Below are positions 6,592 to 13,577 of a stretch of 34,867 nt of DNA, one piece after another. Every line of letters begins with the position of its first letter. Within the stretch, counting starts at the first letter, position 1. This DNA comes from Desulfobaccales bacterium. Its GTDB lineage: Bacteria > Desulfobacterota > Desulfobaccia > Desulfobaccales > 0-14-0-80-60-11. Made by a program: the position numbers and the translations under genes. The DNA lies in the NCBI GenBank assembly GCA_037481655.1, contig JBBFLF010000027.1, positions 1 to 34,867 on the forward strand, written 5' to 3'. The notes below the pieces were generated by a model. It did no database searches. It worked only from the letters and a program-made list of their open reading frames with translations, and was not told the origin of the DNA.

Positions 6592-9096
6592 GTGGCCGTC
6601 CTGGACCGACTGAAAGCCTGGCTCACCCGCCGGCGGCAGGCCGCCGGAGCCGGACCTGCGCCCTCACTTCTGGAACGTTACCAGCACTACAAGCGTCTCC
6701 TGGCCGCCAACGGCGCCATCCTGGCCATTCTGGCCGACCTGCAGACCAAGCAGGCCGAAGACTATGTCTTTGACATGGCCTACGTGCGCAACGCGGTCAG
6801 CCGCCTCAACCGGGAGGTGGAAATCCTGGTGGAGGCCCTCATCGCCCTCTCCGGCGGCCGTTATCAGGGCCTACGGGAGGCCCGGGAACGGGTGGCCGCC
6901 AGGCTCCTGGAGGAGCTGGCCCCGCCGGAGATCCGTCCCGGCCCCCTGGCCCTGCCTTTAAGCAAAGTCACCGAGGGCCACTTCTTCGGCGGCAAGGCGG
7001 AAAAGCTGGGGGAACTGAAGCGCCTGGGTTTTCCGGTCCCCCGGGGCTTTGCGGTGAGCGCCTACGCCCAGAAAGTCTTCTTCCAGCAAGGCGGCCTGGA
7101 AGACTTCATCCGGGAGACCATCCAGGAGGCCGACATCCGCAATCTGGCCAGCCTGGAGCGGGCCGGGGAGACCATCCGGGAGCGCCTCCTGGCCACGCCG
7201 CTGCCGGGGGACCTGTCTCAGGCCCTCACCGCCCAAACGCGCCGCCTGGACGTCCCCCGGGTGGCGGTACGCAGCTCCGCCCTGCAGGAGGACGGCTTCC
7301 ACAGCTTCGCCGGCCAGTTTGAGAGCCTGCTCAACGTGCCCGCCCCCGAGCTGGAAGAGCGCTACAAGGAGGTGCTGGCCAGCCAGTTCACCCCCCGGGT
7401 GCTGTATTACTGCCACGCCCGGGGCTTCACCTATCAGGACCTGGCCATGGGGGTGCTGGTGATGGAGATGGTGCCGGCGAAGGCCGCCGGGGTGCTCTAT
7501 ACCGCCGACCCCAAAACCGGGGAGAAGGCTGTGCTCATCAACGCCGTCTTTGGCCTGGGCACCGCGGCGGTGGGCGGCCACGCCGAGCCGGATGTCTACC
7601 GGGTGGAGGAGGGGCGCCTGGCGTCGCTGCGGCTGGGCCGGAAAGCCCAGCGCCACCGGCTCCGGCCGGAAGGGGGCGTGGCGGAAGAGGAGGTGCCGGA
7701 GGCGGAGCAGCCCTGCCTCACTGAAGCCCAGGTCCTGGAGCTGGCGGCCTTAGGAGAGCGAATTGCCGCCCATTTCGGGGTCCCCCAGGATGTGGAGTGG
7801 GCCATAGATGAGGCAGGGGGCTTCCATATCCTTCAGGCCCGGCCGCTTAAGATCAGCCGGCCTTCCCGGGGGGCCTATCTGCCGCCCCGCCTCAAGGAGG
7901 TGCCCCTGCTGGCGGAAGCCGGCATCATTGCCTCCCGGGGGGCCGCCGCCGGGCCGGTGTTCCGCCTGGAAGATCCGGACGTCAGCCTCGTTCCCGAAGG
8001 CGCGGTGCTGGTGGTGCGCCGGGCTCTCCCCGAATACGGCCTGGCGGTGGGCCGGGTGGCGGCGGTGGTCTCCGAAGGCGGCAGCGCCACCAGCCACCTG
8101 GCCACGGTGCTGCGGGAGGCCGGGGTACCGGCGCTCTTCGGCGTCCGGGAGGCCTGGCAACGCCTCACCCCGGGGGACGTGGTGACGGTGGACGCCTATT
8201 ACGGCAACATCTACGCCGGCCGCCAAGAGGGGCTCCTGAAAGCGCCCCCTGCCGACCCCATCCTGCACCAGAGCCGGGCCCGCCAAGCCCTGGAACGGGT
8301 GATGAAACACATCATCCCCCTGAATCTCCTGGACCCCCGGGATCCCGGCTTCCGGCCCCGCAACTGCCGCACCTACCACGACATCACCCGCTTTGCCCAC
8401 GAAAAGGCCATGGCGGAGCTCTTTCAGGTCTCCCGCCACGGCTCCCGGGAGTTTGCCCGGCGGCTGGTCTCCTCCCTGCCCCTGGAGATTTATGTGGTGG
8501 ATGTGGGCGGGGGCCTGAGGCCCGAAGCCCGGGAAGCCCCGGAGGTCACTCCCGAGGATATCACTTCCCGGCCCATGCAGGCCTACTGGCGGGGGGTGGC
8601 GGCCATCGGCTGGCAGGGTCCCCGGCCCCTGGATCTGGCCGGCTTCATGAGCGTGGTCATGGGGGCCGCCTCGGACACCCAGGCCATGGATCGCCTGCAG
8701 GAGGACAACTACGCCATCCTGGCGGCGGATTATCTGAACTTCTCCAGCCGCCTGGGGTATCATTTCACCACTGTGGACGCCTATTTCGGCGAGCCGGAGC
8801 AGAGCTACGTCACCCTGGTGTTTTACGGCGGCGGCGCCGATGTGAGCCGGCGGGTGCGCCGGGCCCAGTTCCTGGCCCGAGTGCTCACCCACCTGGATTT
8901 CCGGGTGGAGGTGAAGGGCGATTCCCTCACCGCCCGCCTGGACGGCGTCAGTCTGGAGGTATTGGAAGAGCGGCTGGAGGTCCTGGGCCGCCTCATCATG
9001 GCCAGCAAGCAGCTGGATGTCGCCATGGCGGACGACAGCCTCATCGAGCAGTACTTCGAGGAATTCATCAATTCCGGCTATCGCCTGGCCCGCTGA
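6592..9096 (+). CDS. PEP-synthase-like ATP-grasp/phosphohistidine protein with novel C-terminus (paralogue 1)
   Basis: An 834-residue protein. Residues 1-123 are helical and unassigned. Residues about 124-420 match the ATP-binding half of PEP synthase/PPDK: FGGKAEKLGELKRLGFPVPRG, AVRSSALQEDGFHSFAGQFE, AAGVLYTADP and DVEWAIDE...LQARPLK. Residues about 440-545 are the swivelling phosphohistidine domain, with His502 in GGSATSHLATVLREAGVPA. The expected C-terminal PEP/pyruvate TIM barrel is missing. Residues about 560-834 instead carry NCRTYHDITRFAHEKAM (Cys592, His596), RLGYHFTTVDAY and a GGGADVSRRVRRAQF motif, shared with the paralogue at 11001. It should take phosphate from ATP onto His502, but the acceptor is unknown; calling it pyruvate, water dikinase would be wrong. 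The start is GTG, with GAGGG 15 bases upstream. A related case is rifampin phosphotransferase, which uses the same two domains on another acceptor. Confidence 0.85.
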   Translation: MAVLDRLKAWLTRRRQAAGAGPAPSLLERYQHYKRLLAANGAILAILADLQTKQAEDYVFDMAYVRNAVSRLNREVEILVEALIALSGGRYQGLREARERVAARLLEELAPPEIRPGPLALPLSKVTEGHFFGGKAEKLGELKRLGFPVPRGFAVSAYAQKVFFQQGGLEDFIRETIQEADIRNLASLERAGETIRERLLATPLPGDLSQALTAQTRRLDVPRVAVRSSALQEDGFHSFAGQFESLLNVPAPELEERYKEVLASQFTPRVLYYCHARGFTYQDLAMGVLVMEMVPAKAAGVLYTADPKTGEKAVLINAVFGLGTAAVGGHAEPDVYRVEEGRLASLRLGRKAQRHRLRPEGGVAEEEVPEAEQPCLTEAQVLELAALGERIAAHFGVPQDVEWAIDEAGGFHILQARPLKISRPSRGAYLPPRLKEVPLLAEAGIIASRGAAAGPVFRLEDPDVSLVPEGAVLVVRRALPEYGLAVGRVAAVVSEGGSATSHLATVLREAGVPALFGVREAWQRLTPGDVVTVDAYYGNIYAGRQEGLLKAPPADPILHQSRARQALERVMKHIIPLNLLDPRDPGFRPRNCRTYHDITRFAHEKAMAELFQVSRHGSREFARRLVSSLPLEIYVVDVGGGLRPEAREAPEVTPEDITSRPMQAYWRGVAAIGWQGPRPLDLAGFMSVVMGAASDTQAMDRLQEDNYAILAADYLNFSSRLGYHFTTVDAYFGEPEQSYVTLVFYGGGADVSRRVRRAQFLARVLTHLDFRVEVKGDSLTARLDGVSLEVLEERLEVLGRLIMASKQLDVAMADDSLIEQYFEEFINSGYRLAR

Positions 9097-9186
9097 CCCG
9101 AGCCTCAGGGAGCCAGGACTTTCCTGGCCGGTTCTGGTCAACGGCTTGCCCTGTATTGCCCTCGGCGCCTGTGACTGAGGGATCCC

Positions 9187-9210
9187 CGCCGGCACCCTCT
9201 TGTGCCGGCG
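9187..9210 (+). other. Strong hairpin before the 21-residue peptide gene
   Basis: Bases 9187-9195 and 9202-9210 make a perfect 9-bp GC stem with a 6-base loop (CCTCTT). There is no U-tract after it. It lies 19 bases before the ATG of the small membrane peptide. It could be a 3' stabiliser of the upstream mRNA, a weak terminator, or a structure controlling translation of the peptide. Confidence 0.55.
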
Positions 9211-9228
9211 ATCAATTGAGAGGTGCAT

Positions 9229-9294
9229 ATGGAATGGCTGTGGCTGCTCCTGCTGGTGGCAGCGATCCTGCTCCTGGCCCGAGGGGGCTGCTGA
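9229..9294 (+). CDS. Single-span membrane miniprotein, 21 aa
   Basis: A 21-codon reading frame preceded by GAGAGG about 6 bases before the ATG. The product is almost one hydrophobic helix (Leu, Val, Ala, Ile and two Trp) ending in Ala-Arg-Gly-Gly-Cys. This is the profile of bacterial membrane miniproteins that bind and tune larger membrane proteins. It lies between the first dikinase-like protein and the convergent TSUP transporter gene, which is a possible partner. The evidence is the Shine-Dalgarno site, the hydrophobicity and the well-formed hairpin before it; chance cannot be excluded for so short a frame. Confidence 0.45.
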   Translation: MEWLWLLLLVAAILLLARGGC

Positions 9295-9325
9295 GGCAGG
9301 TGATTCCCGGCTTCGGGTAAGCTGG

Positions 9326-9358
9326 AAAAAAAAATTAAGGGCGGCCCCGCGGCCGCCC
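9326..9358 (-). terminator. Rho-independent terminator of the TSUP operon
   Basis: Bases 9339-9346 and 9351-9358 form a perfect 8-bp GC stem with a 4-base loop. On the minus strand it is followed by TTAA and nine T (complement of 9326-9334). A second 9-bp dyad (9375-9383 with 9400-9408) lies between it and the TSUP stop codon. Confidence 0.9.
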
Positions 9359-9419
9359 GGCAGCAATCAAAGAAGGGGGCTCCAGACCATACGTGCTCCG
9401 GAGCCCCCGACGGTTCTGA

Positions 9420-10439
9420 TCAGTGACCCAGACCCAGCTTTTCCGCCTGCTCCTTTTTGAAGCCGATCCACAGGCGGACCATGATGACCACGCACATCCC
9501 CAGGGCGGCGCACATCACCACCCAGGCGGCGGCCACGGAGAAGTTGAACTGCTTCAAGGCCACGGAAAGGCCCGCCAGGATGATCATGATGGCGAAAAGC
9601 AGCCGGATGCCGTAGCCCCTGACGTATTTCACCGCAGTGACGCCGATCTGGGCGCCCACCGAGGCCCCCACCAGCATGTAGATGGCGGCCACGATGTCCA
9701 CCGCGCCCTTGATGCCGTAGGTCCAGCAGCCGTAGGCGCCGGCGAAGAGCACGGAGAAGAGGTCGGTGCCCACCGCAATGGCCGTGGGGCAGCCGATGAG
9801 ATAGATCAAGGCCGGCATGCGGATGAAGCCGCCGCCCACGCCCAGGAAGCCGGAGAGGTAGCCGGTGAAGAAGAACACCCCCATCACCGTCCAGAAGGAG
9901 ATGGTGATGCCGGAGGTGGGGAAGTGCATCATGGGGGGCAGGTTCCAGGCCTTGCGGGGCGGAGCCGTGCCCGCGGCCCGGGCCGCCGCCTTGGCTGCCG
10001 CGGCCGCAGCCCGCTGCTCTTTGGTGGCGTAGTCATAGATCATGTAAATGCCCAGGCCGAAGAGCAGGGCCATGTACGTATAGCGTACTACCGGGCCGGC
10101 CAGCCCCAGGCGGGTGAGAAACATGACGCTCTGGGCGCCGGCCTCCACCCCGATGACCGAGCCGATGATGGACCAGATGCCCAGCTTGAAGTCCACGTTC
10201 CCCATCTTGCGGTGCTTGGCGGTGGCCACGATGGACTTGCCGAAGATGTGGGCCAGGTCGGTGCCGATGGCATAGGCCATGGGGAAGCCGAAGATGTTCA
10301 GGGCCGGGGTCACCACCCAGGCGCCGCCGACGCCGAAGAAGCCGCCCAGCACGCCCACGGAGAAGCCGATGGCCACGAGGATAAGGGCGTTGAAATCCCG
10401 TTCCGCAATGGGCAGATAAACATTGAAGAAATCCAGCAT
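9420..10439 (-). CDS. TSUP family (TauE/SafE) sulfite/organosulfonate exporter-like permease
   Basis: A 339-residue polytopic membrane protein of the TSUP family. Both halves carry the family's Gly-rich motif after the first helix (GGFFGVGGAWVVTPAL near residue 33 and SGFLGVGGGFIRMPAL in the second half), each followed by a Gly-Thr-Asp-Leu turn. An Ala-rich cytoplasmic linker near residues 145-165 joins the halves. Family members move sulfite, sulfonates or other small anions; in sulfur-metabolising bacteria they are often assigned to sulfite or sulfate, but the substrate here is not proven. GGAGG is 9 bases before the ATG. The small membrane protein at 10458-10754 is 18 bases upstream in the same operon. 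It sits between two dikinase-like paralogues. Confidence 0.9.
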   Translation of the reverse strand: MLDFFNVYLPIAERDFNALILVAIGFSVGVLGGFFGVGGAWVVTPALNIFGFPMAYAIGTDLAHIFGKSIVATAKHRKMGNVDFKLGIWSIIGSVIGVEAGAQSVMFLTRLGLAGPVVRYTYMALLFGLGIYMIYDYATKEQRAAAAAAKAAARAAGTAPPRKAWNLPPMMHFPTSGITISFWTVMGVFFFTGYLSGFLGVGGGFIRMPALIYLIGCPTAIAVGTDLFSVLFAGAYGCWTYGIKGAVDIVAAIYMLVGASVGAQIGVTAVKYVRGYGIRLLFAIMIILAGLSVALKQFNFSVAAAWVVMCAALGMCVVIMVRLWIGFKKEQAEKLGLGH

Positions 10440-10457
10440 GTGCCTTATCCTCCCCCC

Positions 10458-10754
10458 TTACTCGTGGTGCTCGATCTTGCTGACTTCCATGCCGATGGCC
10501 TTGAGGATGACGTCGGTCACCACCGCGATGGCCGCCCCCACCACTCCCATGACAATCGTCACCAGGATGGCAAAGACAAACTTGTTGCTATTATACCAGG
10601 AGGCGAAAAAGTAATTGATGGCGCCCAGGCCCTCCACCCGCACCGTCCGGGTGGCCATGTCCGGGACGTCCTTGTCCCCCGGGCCGGCGGCCAGGGCCAG
10701 GACCGGGAGGGCCAGAAGGACAAAGTTGACGAACATGATTTTCAGTTTCTTCAT
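10458..10754 (-). CDS. Small exported/membrane protein upstream of TSUP, 98 aa
   Basis: A 98-residue protein with an N-terminal signal sequence (about residues 1-23, ending Leu-Ala-Leu-Ala-Ala), a short polar segment, and a C-terminal membrane helix near residues 58-85. The tail is charged with two His (IEHHE). I know no function. It precedes the TSUP gene by 18 bases, so it is probably an accessory subunit. GGAGG lies 6 bases before the ATG at 10754; the in-frame GTG at 10760 abuts the Shine-Dalgarno site and is unlikely. It is divergent from the sigma-54-driven gene at 11001. Confidence 0.75.
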   Translation of the reverse strand: MKKLKIMFVNFVLLALPVLALAAGPGDKDVPDMATRTVRVEGLGAINYFFASWYNSNKFVFAILVTIVMGVVGAAIAVVTDVILKAIGMEVSKIEHHE

Positions 10755-10849
10755 TCTCACCCTCCAAAAAAGTTTATAATTGCACTTCAGGAGCGGACAG
10801 TGCCGGACCTGAATCCACTTCCCGGTCAGAATTGTTTACAGGCCGTCAA

Positions 10850-10873
10850 AGAGCCGGGGTGTGAGTCGGCTCT
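10850..10873 (+). promoter_or_regulatory. Dyad upstream of the sigma-54 promoter (candidate activator site)
   Basis: AGAGCCG (10850-10856) and CGGCTCT (10867-10873) form a perfect 7-bp inverted repeat with a 10-base spacer. Its centre is about 65 bases before the predicted start site of the sigma-54 promoter. Enhancer-binding activators use such dyads, usually somewhat further upstream, so this is a candidate only. Confidence 0.4.
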
Positions 10874-10898
10874 GGCGGGGTGGAAACAAGAAAAAAAC

Positions 10899-10915
10899 CT
10901 GGCACATATTTTGCT
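10899..10915 (+). promoter_or_regulatory. Sigma-54 (RpoN) promoter
   Basis: CTGGCAC-ATATT-TTGCT matches the -24/-12 consensus TGGCAC-N5-TTGC(A/T), with the GG and GC elements exactly 12 bases apart. The start site would be near 10926, giving a leader of about 75 bases to the ATG at 11001. It should make transcription of the second dikinase-like gene and the universal stress protein depend on an enhancer-binding activator. Confidence 0.8.
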
Positions 10916-10941
10916 AAATTAAAATTTTTTAGCTGGAAATC

Positions 10942-10955
10942 GTGAATTAATTCAC
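10942..10955 (+). promoter_or_regulatory. Perfect 14-bp palindrome in the leader (possible operator)
   Basis: GTGAATTAATTCAC is a perfect palindrome placed about 16-29 bases after the predicted sigma-54 start site and 45 bases before the ATG at 11001. The position suits a repressor operator or a site shared with the divergent TSUP operon. No regulator gene is nearby to name. Confidence 0.5.
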
Positions 10956-11000
10956 ATTATCTTCCCCTGCTTGTCAAGAGATTTTTCATCAACGGACCTT

Positions 11001-13577
11001 ATGGGGTGGCGGGATTTTTTCCGATGGCGCCGCAAGCCGGCCCAACGTCTCGGGCTGAGGGAAATCTTCCAGGGTTTCCAGCAGGTTCTGGCGGCCAATA
11101 ATGAAGTCCTGGCCCTGATGGGCGACCTGGAGGAGAAGCTCTCCGGCCGCCTCAGCCTGGACCTGCCGGAGCTGCGCCGGGTGATCCACACTCTGGATGA
11201 GCACCTCACCCGGCTGGTGGCCGCCCTGGCCCGTATGTCCGGCAACCGCTGGCCGGAGCTGGAGCAGACTCGCCGCCGGCTCCAGGTCCTCATCCAGATG
11301 CGGCTGGCGGAGCATCCTCCCGTCCCGGAGACGCCGTTCGTTCTCTTTCTCCGCCAAGCCAAACCGGAGGAGCTGGCCGCCCTGGGAGGCAAGGCCGCCA
11401 ATTTGGCCCGCCTGGCCCAGGCCGGGTTGGCGGTGCCCGAGGGCTTTGTGGCCACCGCCCGGGCTTACCGCCGGTTCATGAGTCAAAGGCTCCCCGGCAA
11501 GACCACGGTGCTGGAGGAGGTGATTCAGGCGCGGCTGGCCCGGCTGGATTTTGCCGATCCGGCGGCGGTGGCCCAGGCGGCCCGGGAGATCCAGGCCCTC
11601 ATCCTGGCCCAGCCCCTGCCCGACGACCTTTCTCAGGAGCTCCTGAACGCCGCCCGCCGCCTGGCCCCCAACGGCACCCGCCTGGTGGTGCGCTCCAGCG
11701 GCTCCCGGGAGGAGGTGACTGCCACCTTTGCCGGGGTCTATGACAGTTTCCTCAACGTCTCTCCGGAGGAGGTCCCCGAGCGCTGGCGCCAGGTGGTGGC
11801 CAGCCACTTCTCCCACCGGGCCCTGCAATATTTCCGGGACCTGGGCCTGGAGGTGGCCGAGGCCTTCATGGCGGTGCTGGTGCAGCGCCTCATCCCGGCC
11901 CGGGCCGCCGGCGTGCTTTTCACCACCGACCCCGAGAGCTTCCGCTTTGACCGGCTGCTGGTGAGCGCCTCCTGGGGGTTGGGGCCGGAGCTGGTGATGA
12001 GCGAAAGCAACCCGGACCTTTATGTGGTGGACAAGCAAAGCGGCCGGGTGGTCTCCTCCCAGGTGGGGCACAAAGCCCGGCAGCTCATCCTCCAGGGCGA
12101 CCGGCTGGCGGCCCAGATCCTCCCCGCCGAAGTGGCCCAGACCCCGGTCTTGACCCCCCGGGACCTGGAGGAGCTGGCCAGGGTGGCCCTGGACCTGGAA
12201 GATCTCCTGGCCGGGCCCCAGGACGTGGAGTGGGTCCAGGACTGGCAGGGGCGTTGCCACCTGGTGCAGTGCCGGCCCCTGCGCATCTCCCGGGCCCAGG
12301 CCCGCCGCTTCCTGGAGGAGGTCGGCCGGGAGTGCCGGGCCGAAGTGCTCCTGGAGGCCGGCATCCCCGGCTCCTGGGGGGTGGGCGCCGGACCGGTGTT
12401 CATCCTCACCCCGGAGAGAAGTCAGGAAGAGGTGCCCGCCGGCGCGGTGCTGGTCATCCCCCGCACCTCCCCGCAGCTCACCCCGGTGCTCTCCCGGGTG
12501 GCCGCCCTGGTGGCGGATGTGGGCTCCGCCACGGGTCACATGGCCCTGGTGGCCCGGGAGTACGGCATCCCCGCCCTGGTGGACACCTTCCAGGCCACCA
12601 AGCTCCTCAAGCCGGGGGAGGTGGTGACGGTGGATGCCTACAACGCCCGCATCTACCGGGGCCGGGTGGAGGAGCTGGTGCGCTTTGAGGAGCGCCAGCG
12701 GCCGCATCTCTTGCGCTCCCCGGGGCTGGAGCGCCTCCGGGCCGTCCTGGATCTGATCGTGCCCCTCACCCTGGTGGACTTTAAAAGCCCCAAATTTCGG
12801 CCGGAGAACTGCCGCACCTACCACGACATCGCCTTTTTCGCCCATGAAAAGGCCATGCAGGTGATGTTCGGCCTCATGGACGAGGTGGCCGCCGGGCGGG
12901 TGCCGGCCCTGCGCCTTTTGAAACTGGACACCCGCCTGCCCCTGAACCTGCACCTGGTGGATGTGGGGGACGGCCTGGCCAGCCACGAAAATCCGGTGCC
13001 GCCGGAGGACATCCTGTCGGTGCCCTTCAAGGCCCTGTGGCGGGGCATCAGCCATCCGGACATCTCCTGGGCCGGCCCGGTACCGGTGAGCGTGGGCGGC
13101 TTCCTCCACGTCCTGGGCCAGTCCGCCATCCGCCCGCCGGAGCAGTTCTGGGACAAGACCTACGCCATCGTCTCCCGGCATTATGTCAACTACGCCTGCC
13201 GCCTGGGCTACCATTACCAGAGTGTGGACAGCTATTGCGGCCCCACCGCGGCGGACAACTACATCAATTTCAACTTCAAGGGCGGCGCGGCGGATGAACT
13301 GCGGCGTATCCGCCGGGCCAAGTTCATTGCCCTGGTGGTGGCGGCCTTGGGCTTTGAGGTGGAGCAGCACCTGGATGTCATCCGGGCCCGTTTCCGCAAA
13401 CGCCCCCTGGAGGAAACGGAGGAGCGCCTGGATCTGGTGGGCCGCCTCATGGCCTACGTCCGCCAGATGGACATGCTCATGTCCCACGACGGCATGATCA
13501 CCTTCCTGGCGGAGCGCTTCCTCGCCGGTCATTATGAGCGGCCCCAGGGAACAGAGGGCTTCTCCGGGCCCTCGTGA
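11001..13577 (+). CDS. PEP-synthase-like ATP-grasp/phosphohistidine protein with novel C-terminus (paralogue 2)
   Basis: An 858-residue paralogue of the 6592 gene with the same order of domains: a helical N-terminus (about 1-115), an ATP-binding half (LGGKAANLARLAQAGLAVPEG, LVVRSSGSREEVTATFAGVY, AAGVLFTTDPESF, DVEWVQDWQ...QCRPLRI), and a swivelling domain with His513 in GSATGHMALVAREYGIPA. It is followed by the shared C-terminal domain (NCRTYHDIAFFAHEKAM with Cys604 and His608; RLGYHYQSVDSYCG; GGAADELRRIRRAKF). No PEP-binding barrel is present. I chose the ATG at 11001 because its N-terminus then lines up with the paralogue; a TTG at 10971 is in frame but has no ribosome-binding site. A sigma-54 promoter lies at 10899-10915. 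The universal stress protein follows after 43 bases. The phosphate acceptor is unknown. Confidence 0.85.
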   Translation: MGWRDFFRWRRKPAQRLGLREIFQGFQQVLAANNEVLALMGDLEEKLSGRLSLDLPELRRVIHTLDEHLTRLVAALARMSGNRWPELEQTRRRLQVLIQMRLAEHPPVPETPFVLFLRQAKPEELAALGGKAANLARLAQAGLAVPEGFVATARAYRRFMSQRLPGKTTVLEEVIQARLARLDFADPAAVAQAAREIQALILAQPLPDDLSQELLNAARRLAPNGTRLVVRSSGSREEVTATFAGVYDSFLNVSPEEVPERWRQVVASHFSHRALQYFRDLGLEVAEAFMAVLVQRLIPARAAGVLFTTDPESFRFDRLLVSASWGLGPELVMSESNPDLYVVDKQSGRVVSSQVGHKARQLILQGDRLAAQILPAEVAQTPVLTPRDLEELARVALDLEDLLAGPQDVEWVQDWQGRCHLVQCRPLRISRAQARRFLEEVGRECRAEVLLEAGIPGSWGVGAGPVFILTPERSQEEVPAGAVLVIPRTSPQLTPVLSRVAALVADVGSATGHMALVAREYGIPALVDTFQATKLLKPGEVVTVDAYNARIYRGRVEELVRFEERQRPHLLRSPGLERLRAVLDLIVPLTLVDFKSPKFRPENCRTYHDIAFFAHEKAMQVMFGLMDEVAAGRVPALRLLKLDTRLPLNLHLVDVGDGLASHENPVPPEDILSVPFKALWRGISHPDISWAGPVPVSVGGFLHVLGQSAIRPPEQFWDKTYAIVSRHYVNYACRLGYHYQSVDSYCGPTAADNYINFNFKGGAADELRRIRRAKFIALVVAALGFEVEQHLDVIRARFRKRPLEETEERLDLVGRLMAYVRQMDMLMSHDGMITFLAERFLAGHYERPQGTEGFSGPS

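Follow-up and report, generated by a model that had tools for sequence, protein, structure and literature searches.

Among the described enzymes closest to the two proteins reported here, PEP synthase (PpsA; PDB 2ols and 8a8e) has an ATP-grasp domain followed by a swivel histidine, together with a PEP/pyruvate barrel. RPH (5hv3) is a small-molecule dikinase without a PEP barrel, in which the swivel is C-terminal and comes after the rifampin-binding domain. The phenolic dikinases PpsAB, CreHI and HpeHI (9goj) likewise rely on ATP-driven phosphohistidine transfer; they need two partner proteins, with the ATP-grasp and the swivel carried on separate subunits (PMC12167813). The known relatives act on small molecules (PMC12167813). 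A similar phosphohistidine swivel-type domain is found in enzyme I of the PTS (2wqd, Z 16 with the full-length model described below), which has no ATP-grasp and is charged by PEP via its barrel.

The closest described gene cluster is the “nitrate cluster” of Desulfovibrio vulgaris and D. alaskensis (DVU0251-DVU0245/Dde_0597-Dde_0605), in which transposon insertions lead to nitrate resistance (Korte et al., 2014; PMC4001038). This cluster codes for the TSUP carrier DVU0251, the hypothetical protein DVU0250, a periplasmic binding protein, a histidine kinase, the stand-alone receiver DVU0247, the dikinase DVU0246, listed with an ATP-grasp and a mobile domain and no barrel, and a phosphatase (PMC4001038). 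Isolated mutants of DVU0246, DVU0247, DVU0250 and DVU0251 grew alike with and without nitrate, which the authors tentatively put down to a carrier that leaks and normally handles thiosulfate, citing mild sickness on thiosulfate from unpublished data; mutants of the phosphatase (DVU0245/Dde_0605) had effects of opposite sign in the two species (PMC4001038). TSUP carriers are numerous in sulfate reducers and their substrates are unassigned (PMC5840216).

This report concerns two dikinase-like proteins, P1 and P2, encoded in a window of 34,867 nucleotides, the whole stretch of DNA that was analysed, from a Desulfobaccales bacterium (contig JBBFLF010000027.1). Unlike PEP synthase, P1 and P2 have no PEP/pyruvate barrel and bear instead another C-terminal domain as well as additional N-terminal helices. 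Unlike RPH, their swivel precedes the C-terminal domain, which has no sequence relation to RPH, and unlike the phenolic dikinases, copies of their family normally have both the ATP-grasp and the swivel. Whereas enzyme I depends on PEP, they possess an ATP-grasp, the expected charger. As in the nitrate cluster, TSUP carriers and stand-alone receivers are encoded together with dikinases of the family, but the window has no periplasmic binding protein, histidine kinase or phosphatase.

Domain architecture of P1 and P2

Both open reading frames are intact where the first-pass annotation had placed them (Table 1), and orthologs of P1 within the same genus are 91-93% identical to it. Pfam recognizes only PPDK_N and PEP-utilizers (the mobile domain) in the two proteins, both on a single chain in each case, and finds nothing past residue 538 or 558, respectively; it finds no HisKA/DHp or HATPase_c domain in either protein. 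In the family alignment of 121 members, K135, R227, E402, Q415 and R417 are each present in no fewer than 120 and H502 in every one, so that the machinery appears active as judged from sequence. The domain matches and conserved residues confirm that both proteins have the dikinase ATP-grasp and swivel histidine, as had been proposed from the sequence, and the number His513 given then for P2 is correct when counted from the ATG start.

Table 1. Features of the P1/P2 locus, with positions in the window
Feature	Position	Strand	Remarks
P1, dikinase-like protein	6592..9096	+	834 aa, start GTG 6592
P1 N-terminal helical region (residues 26-109)	6667..6918	+	no Pfam match; common to family
P1 ATP-grasp (residues 116-423)	6937..7860	+	PPDK_N E 4e-77; 5hv6 Z 36, rmsd 2.3; K135, R227, E402, Q415, R417
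P1 swivel (mobile) domain (residues 436-545)	7897..8226	+	PEP-utilizers E 5e-16; 2e28 Z 17.8, rmsd 1.6
P1 His502 codon, predicted phosphoryl carrier	8095..8097	+	same in 121/121 members
P1 undescribed C-terminal domain (residues 546-834)	8227..9093	+	near-invariant C592, H596, D597, H603, E604, H724, R757, D809
TSUP (TauE/SafE) anion carrier between P1 and P2	9420..10439	-	PF01925 E 1.3e-43
Small membrane protein	10461..10760	-	~100 aa; first gene of TSUP operon in 44 loci
Sigma54-like -24/-12 site upstream of P2	10899..10915	+	CTGGCACATATTTTGCT; 12/13 consensus positions
P2, dikinase-like protein	10971..13577	+	868 aa from TTG 10971; 858 aa if ATG 11001
P2 ATP-grasp	11379..12299	+	PPDK_N E 3e-70
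P2 swivel domain	12435..12644	+	PEP-utilizers E 8e-20
P2 swivel His codon	12537..12539	+	His523 from TTG 10971; His513 from ATG 11001
P2 undescribed C-terminal domain	12669..13574	+	41% identity with P1 C-terminal domain, E 3e-67
Double universal stress protein after P2	13534..14454	+	PF00582 E 2e-55; recurrent family neighbour

The first two domains are also recovered in the predicted structure. For residues 116-543 of the full-length model, RPH is the best match (Z 42, 415 residues, rmsd 2.9), followed by PEP synthase 2ols (Z 38 over 362 residues), and the model has no structural match past about residue 570. Neither protein comes near acceptance as an RPH (227 and 214 bits against an NCBIfam cut-off of 999), and both Pfam and the full-length model place the swivel ahead of the C-terminal domain. 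A 713-aa RPH-like dikinase with a C-terminal swivel and no PEP barrel is encoded elsewhere in the host genome (L024:6836-8980).

The C-terminal regions of P1 and P2 align over 283 residues (41% identity, E 3e-67), so the common region claimed by the first-pass annotation is real, at about 280 residues. The claimed loss of the barrel is likewise borne out. The PEP/pyruvate barrel PF02896 is absent from both proteins in Pfam searches, and the prediction of a TIM barrel, which had been set beforehand as the outcome that would refute the claim, did not materialize: AF2 models the C-terminal region with confidence (mean pLDDT 84.7) as helices followed by a four-strand meander and a ferredoxin-like alpha/beta unit, with no (beta-alpha)8 barrel. 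A profile search of the region, proposed at the same time, gave no significant sequence relative, neither in Pfam, against which the C-terminal regions of 31 family members were compared, nor among PDB sequences, where nothing fell below E 0.09. When the C-terminal model was searched with Foldseek and VIA-align, the best matches were 2plg (E 2e-3) and 4h5b (E 2e-2), with TM-scores <0.4, and ferredoxin-like units reached a Z of at most 7.4. We take 4h5b to be YbjN-like. The rifampin-binding domain fold was not among the matches, all of which were partial and weak. A fold assignment from 2plg, 4h5b or the ferredoxin-like units was dropped, as these matches reflect common arrangements only, and novelty of the fold is not claimed either.

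These results also bear on one alternative, namely that P1 and P2 are divergent PEP synthases or PPDKs whose barrel has become unrecognizable. The first two domains do come in the same order, and generic annotation supports such a reading (e.g., Ddes_1644, “pyruvate phosphate dikinase”). Yet, besides the missing PF02896 and the non-barrel prediction, the proteins score only 277-306 bits against NCBIfam cut-offs of 598-740, and thus neither is accepted as PEP synthase. PF02896 matches in the host genome are confined to two other loci, a genuine PPDK (1310 bits against a cut-off of 843) and PTS enzyme I, which argues that P1 and P2 are not the PEP enzymes of their host. This alternative is strongly disfavoured, to the point of being very improbable, and we are nearly certain of the architecture itself, i.e., a dikinase front end without a barrel and with a different C-terminal domain.

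Within that domain, C592, H596, D597, H603, E604, H724, R757 and D809 are each kept in 113-121 of the 121 members. Near-invariant polar residues of this kind would suit a metabolic kinase, in which the C-terminal domain binds and phosphorylates a small sulfur or carbon metabolite, with the carrier bringing in the substrate or releasing the product; that known relatives such as RPH and HpeHI are small-molecule dikinases (PMC12167813) points the same way.

Distribution, pairing and degenerate copies

The family is present in seven copies in the 2.87-Mb host genome and in 107 of the 297 sampled genomes of the phylum, from which it follows that the C-terminal region does not belong to a chance open reading frame. 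The gene dsrA was detected above the cut-off in 102 of the 107 carriers versus 41 of the 190 non-carriers, the five carriers without it being MAGs that are 62-80% complete, and aprA in 98 of 107 versus 18 of 190. The sampled genomes are mutually related, so that Fisher p values for these tallies overstate independence. Even so, the association runs almost entirely one way: the genomes with the family are those of sulfate reducers, and some sulfate reducers do not have it. Given the 18 aprA-positive genomes without it, the family is not essential for sulfate reduction. In a scan of GTDB contigs, the named carriers are Desulfobacterota, except for one Schekmanbacteria MAG (L152), whose member is likely a contamination as it lies on a 3-kb contig and is missing from 8 relatives. 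P1 and P2 belong to a large branch of the dikinase superfamily that has no name and occurs in sulfate-reducing Desulfobacterota. PADLOC revealed no association with anti-phage systems, and no plasmid match was found.

Several family members depart from the common gene structure. In the L157-L160 subfamily, about 195 additional C-terminal residues weakly resemble 3-keto-disaccharide hydrolase/lectin domains (Pfam E 0.0035 for L158); these fusions were considered as a Rosetta stone and rejected, since such a weak lectin-like resemblance does not name the acceptor. At L064:2457-4926, L118:6257-8864 and L128:6257-8873, family genes appear as two open reading frames split near residue 300, by either a sequencing frameshift or a natural split.

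A tree of 112 family copies included 24 pairs encoded at the same locus. None of them joins close paralogs; all 24 bring together distant subfamilies, with 13 pairs of class I and class II, 10 pairs of distant class III lines, among them P1/P2, and one pair with a degenerate copy. The absence of close-paralog pairs indicates that pairing is old and heterotypic. The first-pass annotation had recognized the pairing of the two genes, which stands, but had missed its heterotypic nature across the family, as well as the links to sulfate reduction and to anion carriers. Degenerate copies have lost different parts of the machinery. Two of them (L200:9473-11974 and L213:3-2177) have lost most of the ATP residues and kept the histidine and the C-terminal set, another (L210:13057-15627) has kept the ATP residues and the histidine and lost much of the C-terminal set, and a fourth (L204:1993-4728) has lost both the ATP site and the swivel histidine and retains a well-conserved C-terminal region (E 5e-78). 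These residue calls depend on the alignment, and the first copy at L213 begins at a contig end. Where the ATP site is dead and the histidine intact, a copy can function only after some other protein has charged it, an argument for action in trans. One locus (L200:6015-14614) contains three consecutive dikinase genes with a receiver and a TSUP gene, the middle copy being ATP-dead with its histidine and C-terminal set intact.

Gene neighbourhood and relation to the nitrate cluster

Over 105 loci, the family is accompanied by receivers (67 loci), TSUP carriers (63), histidine kinases (58) and universal stress proteins (33), and in 17 of the 105, in Desulfovibrionales and relatives, by a membrane sigma54 activator. 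Pfam families among the neighbours comprise TauE, the Na+/sulfate symporter (DASS), dCache-PAS histidine kinases, stand-alone receivers, the sigma54 activator, CBS and carbonic anhydrase. Intervals between the dikinase and the receiver or activator gene are often shorter than 50 bp or negative, i.e., the genes overlap. As the loci were selected via the dikinase, the context counts are partly ascertained, and the fair comparison is that of near versus far genes, in which TSUP genes were 4 times more common near the dikinase (p 0.009) and receivers about 1.9 times (p 0.07). In the host genome, 3 of the 9 TSUP genes adjoin family members.

A good sigma54 site accompanies the operon formed by the small membrane protein and TSUP genes at 15 of its 44 loci, versus about 1% of random windows, in agreement with the prediction in D. 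vulgaris that DVU0151 controls DVU0150-0146 (PMC4641369). DVU2956 and DVU2960 were weighed as sigma54 activators for this locus and set aside, since DVU0151, of the GAFSEA type, is a better fit to the activator of the family. The site upstream of P2 reaches a level of agreement with the consensus that is met by 0.3% of random 320-bp windows; it was not seen at the closest orthologs of P2 and may be a chance or local occurrence. In D. desulfuricans, the sigma54 activator Ddes_1643 and the adjacent Ddes_1644 both fall under NO (PMC5701242).

Other arrangements were noted in passing. A family member of the host genome (L022:7118-16743) is found with a carbonic anhydrase, a receiver, a dCache kinase, a CBS protein, a Na+/sulfate symporter and CbiK. 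It resembles a sulfate-uptake cluster of Desulfosarcina in which a Na+/sulfate symporter is encoded with two-component and CBS genes, and for which the text names no dikinase (PMC11887813). A DUF4881 lipoprotein gene adjoins the TSUP gene at L067:1774-2391 and at 26 more loci in sulfate reducers, with two more small membrane proteins that have no Pfam names.

The nitrate cluster can be connected to the family through its relatives. A Pseudodesulfovibrio locus (L196) reproduces its gene order (TSUP, a 203-aa protein, Phosphonate-bd, histidine kinase, 119-aa receiver, dikinase and DSP phosphatase) and another (L208) does so in part. The dikinases of both carry the C-terminal domain (E 1e-77 and 4e-71, respectively), and that of L208 aligns with P1 end to end (32%, E 1e-119). 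By synteny and gene sizes, DVU0246/Dde_0604 very probably belong to the family, although the sequence of DVU0246 itself was not compared and the gene is annotated as shorter (2235 bp). The published mutants of this syntenic relative suggest, on genetic grounds, that the module is needed for the entry of anions, with the reservation that polar effects of the transposons could account for the common phenotypes. The phosphatase of the cluster could reverse a phosphorylation, a suggestion that carries little weight because of the opposite signs of its mutants in the two species.

Neighbours and mutants together allow two further readings to be weighed. Carriers adjoining the dikinase favour the metabolic kinase introduced above, but seven paralogs accompanied by sensors speak against it, as does the lack of recurring catabolic enzymes in the clusters, and the dikinase mutant phenocopies loss of the carrier rather than a metabolic block; we regard this reading as unlikely, albeit still a serious contender. 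Alternatively, the module could be a signal relay, in which a phosphoryl group passes between the histidine of the dikinase and the aspartate of the adjacent stand-alone receiver, with the dikinase as an ATP-driven phosphorelay protein or as the output of the receiver. In its favour, receivers without an output domain stand alone beside the dikinase gene, often overlapping it, and receiver and dikinase mutants have a common phenotype (PMC4001038). This second reading nevertheless appears rather improbable, given that the cluster of the window and many others have no receiver, that a normal histidine kinase is usually there to charge one, and that the Cys, His, Arg and Asp residues that hardly vary in the C-terminal domain look more like a substrate site.

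Proposed function and significance

The explanation that we favour, at even confidence and with no chemistry shown, is that P1, P2 and their relatives are ATP-driven phosphohistidine transferases, working partly as heterotypic pairs, that are needed for TSUP-type transport of sulfur oxyanions. From the intact residues and the fold, the phosphoryl group of ATP would be transferred in P1 and P2 to the swivel histidine, which would then presumably hand it on to an acceptor located at the C-terminal domain, and not to pyruvate. That these proteins use ATP and become phosphorylated on the histidine is an inference, in the absence of biochemistry, from what PEP synthase, PPDK, RPH and HpeHI are known to do (PMC12167813), and the undescribed acceptor proposed by the first-pass annotation stands as an inference too; confidence in any particular acceptor, be it a metabolite, a receiver or a carrier, is low. 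Judging from the pairing and the degenerate copies, family members would act at least in part as heterotypic pairs, some of them charged only by their partner. The module would permit or regulate the passage of sulfur oxyanions, be it thiosulfate, sulfite or sulfate, through the co-encoded TSUP-type carrier, and would itself be governed by Cache histidine kinases, stand-alone receivers or sigma54 activators. A bolder version, which we consider improbable, is an ATP-driven, PTS-like uptake of sulfur oxyanions specific to sulfate reducers, in which one member of a heterotypic pair can charge the histidine of the other in trans and phosphate, via the C-terminal domain or the receiver, switches or drives TSUP-type carriers.

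Automatic annotation and metabolic models currently treat these genes as coding for PEP-forming enzymes, and the first-pass annotation was right that generic names conceal the architecture: up to eight or more such enzymes per genome are hidden as “PEP synthase” and “pyruvate phosphate dikinase.” The finding also bears on the nitrate resistance of oil-field souring bacteria, for which mutants in one such cluster exist. This family would supply one of the missing pieces in a poorly understood process, the uptake and metering of sulfate, thiosulfate and sulfite by sulfate reducers.
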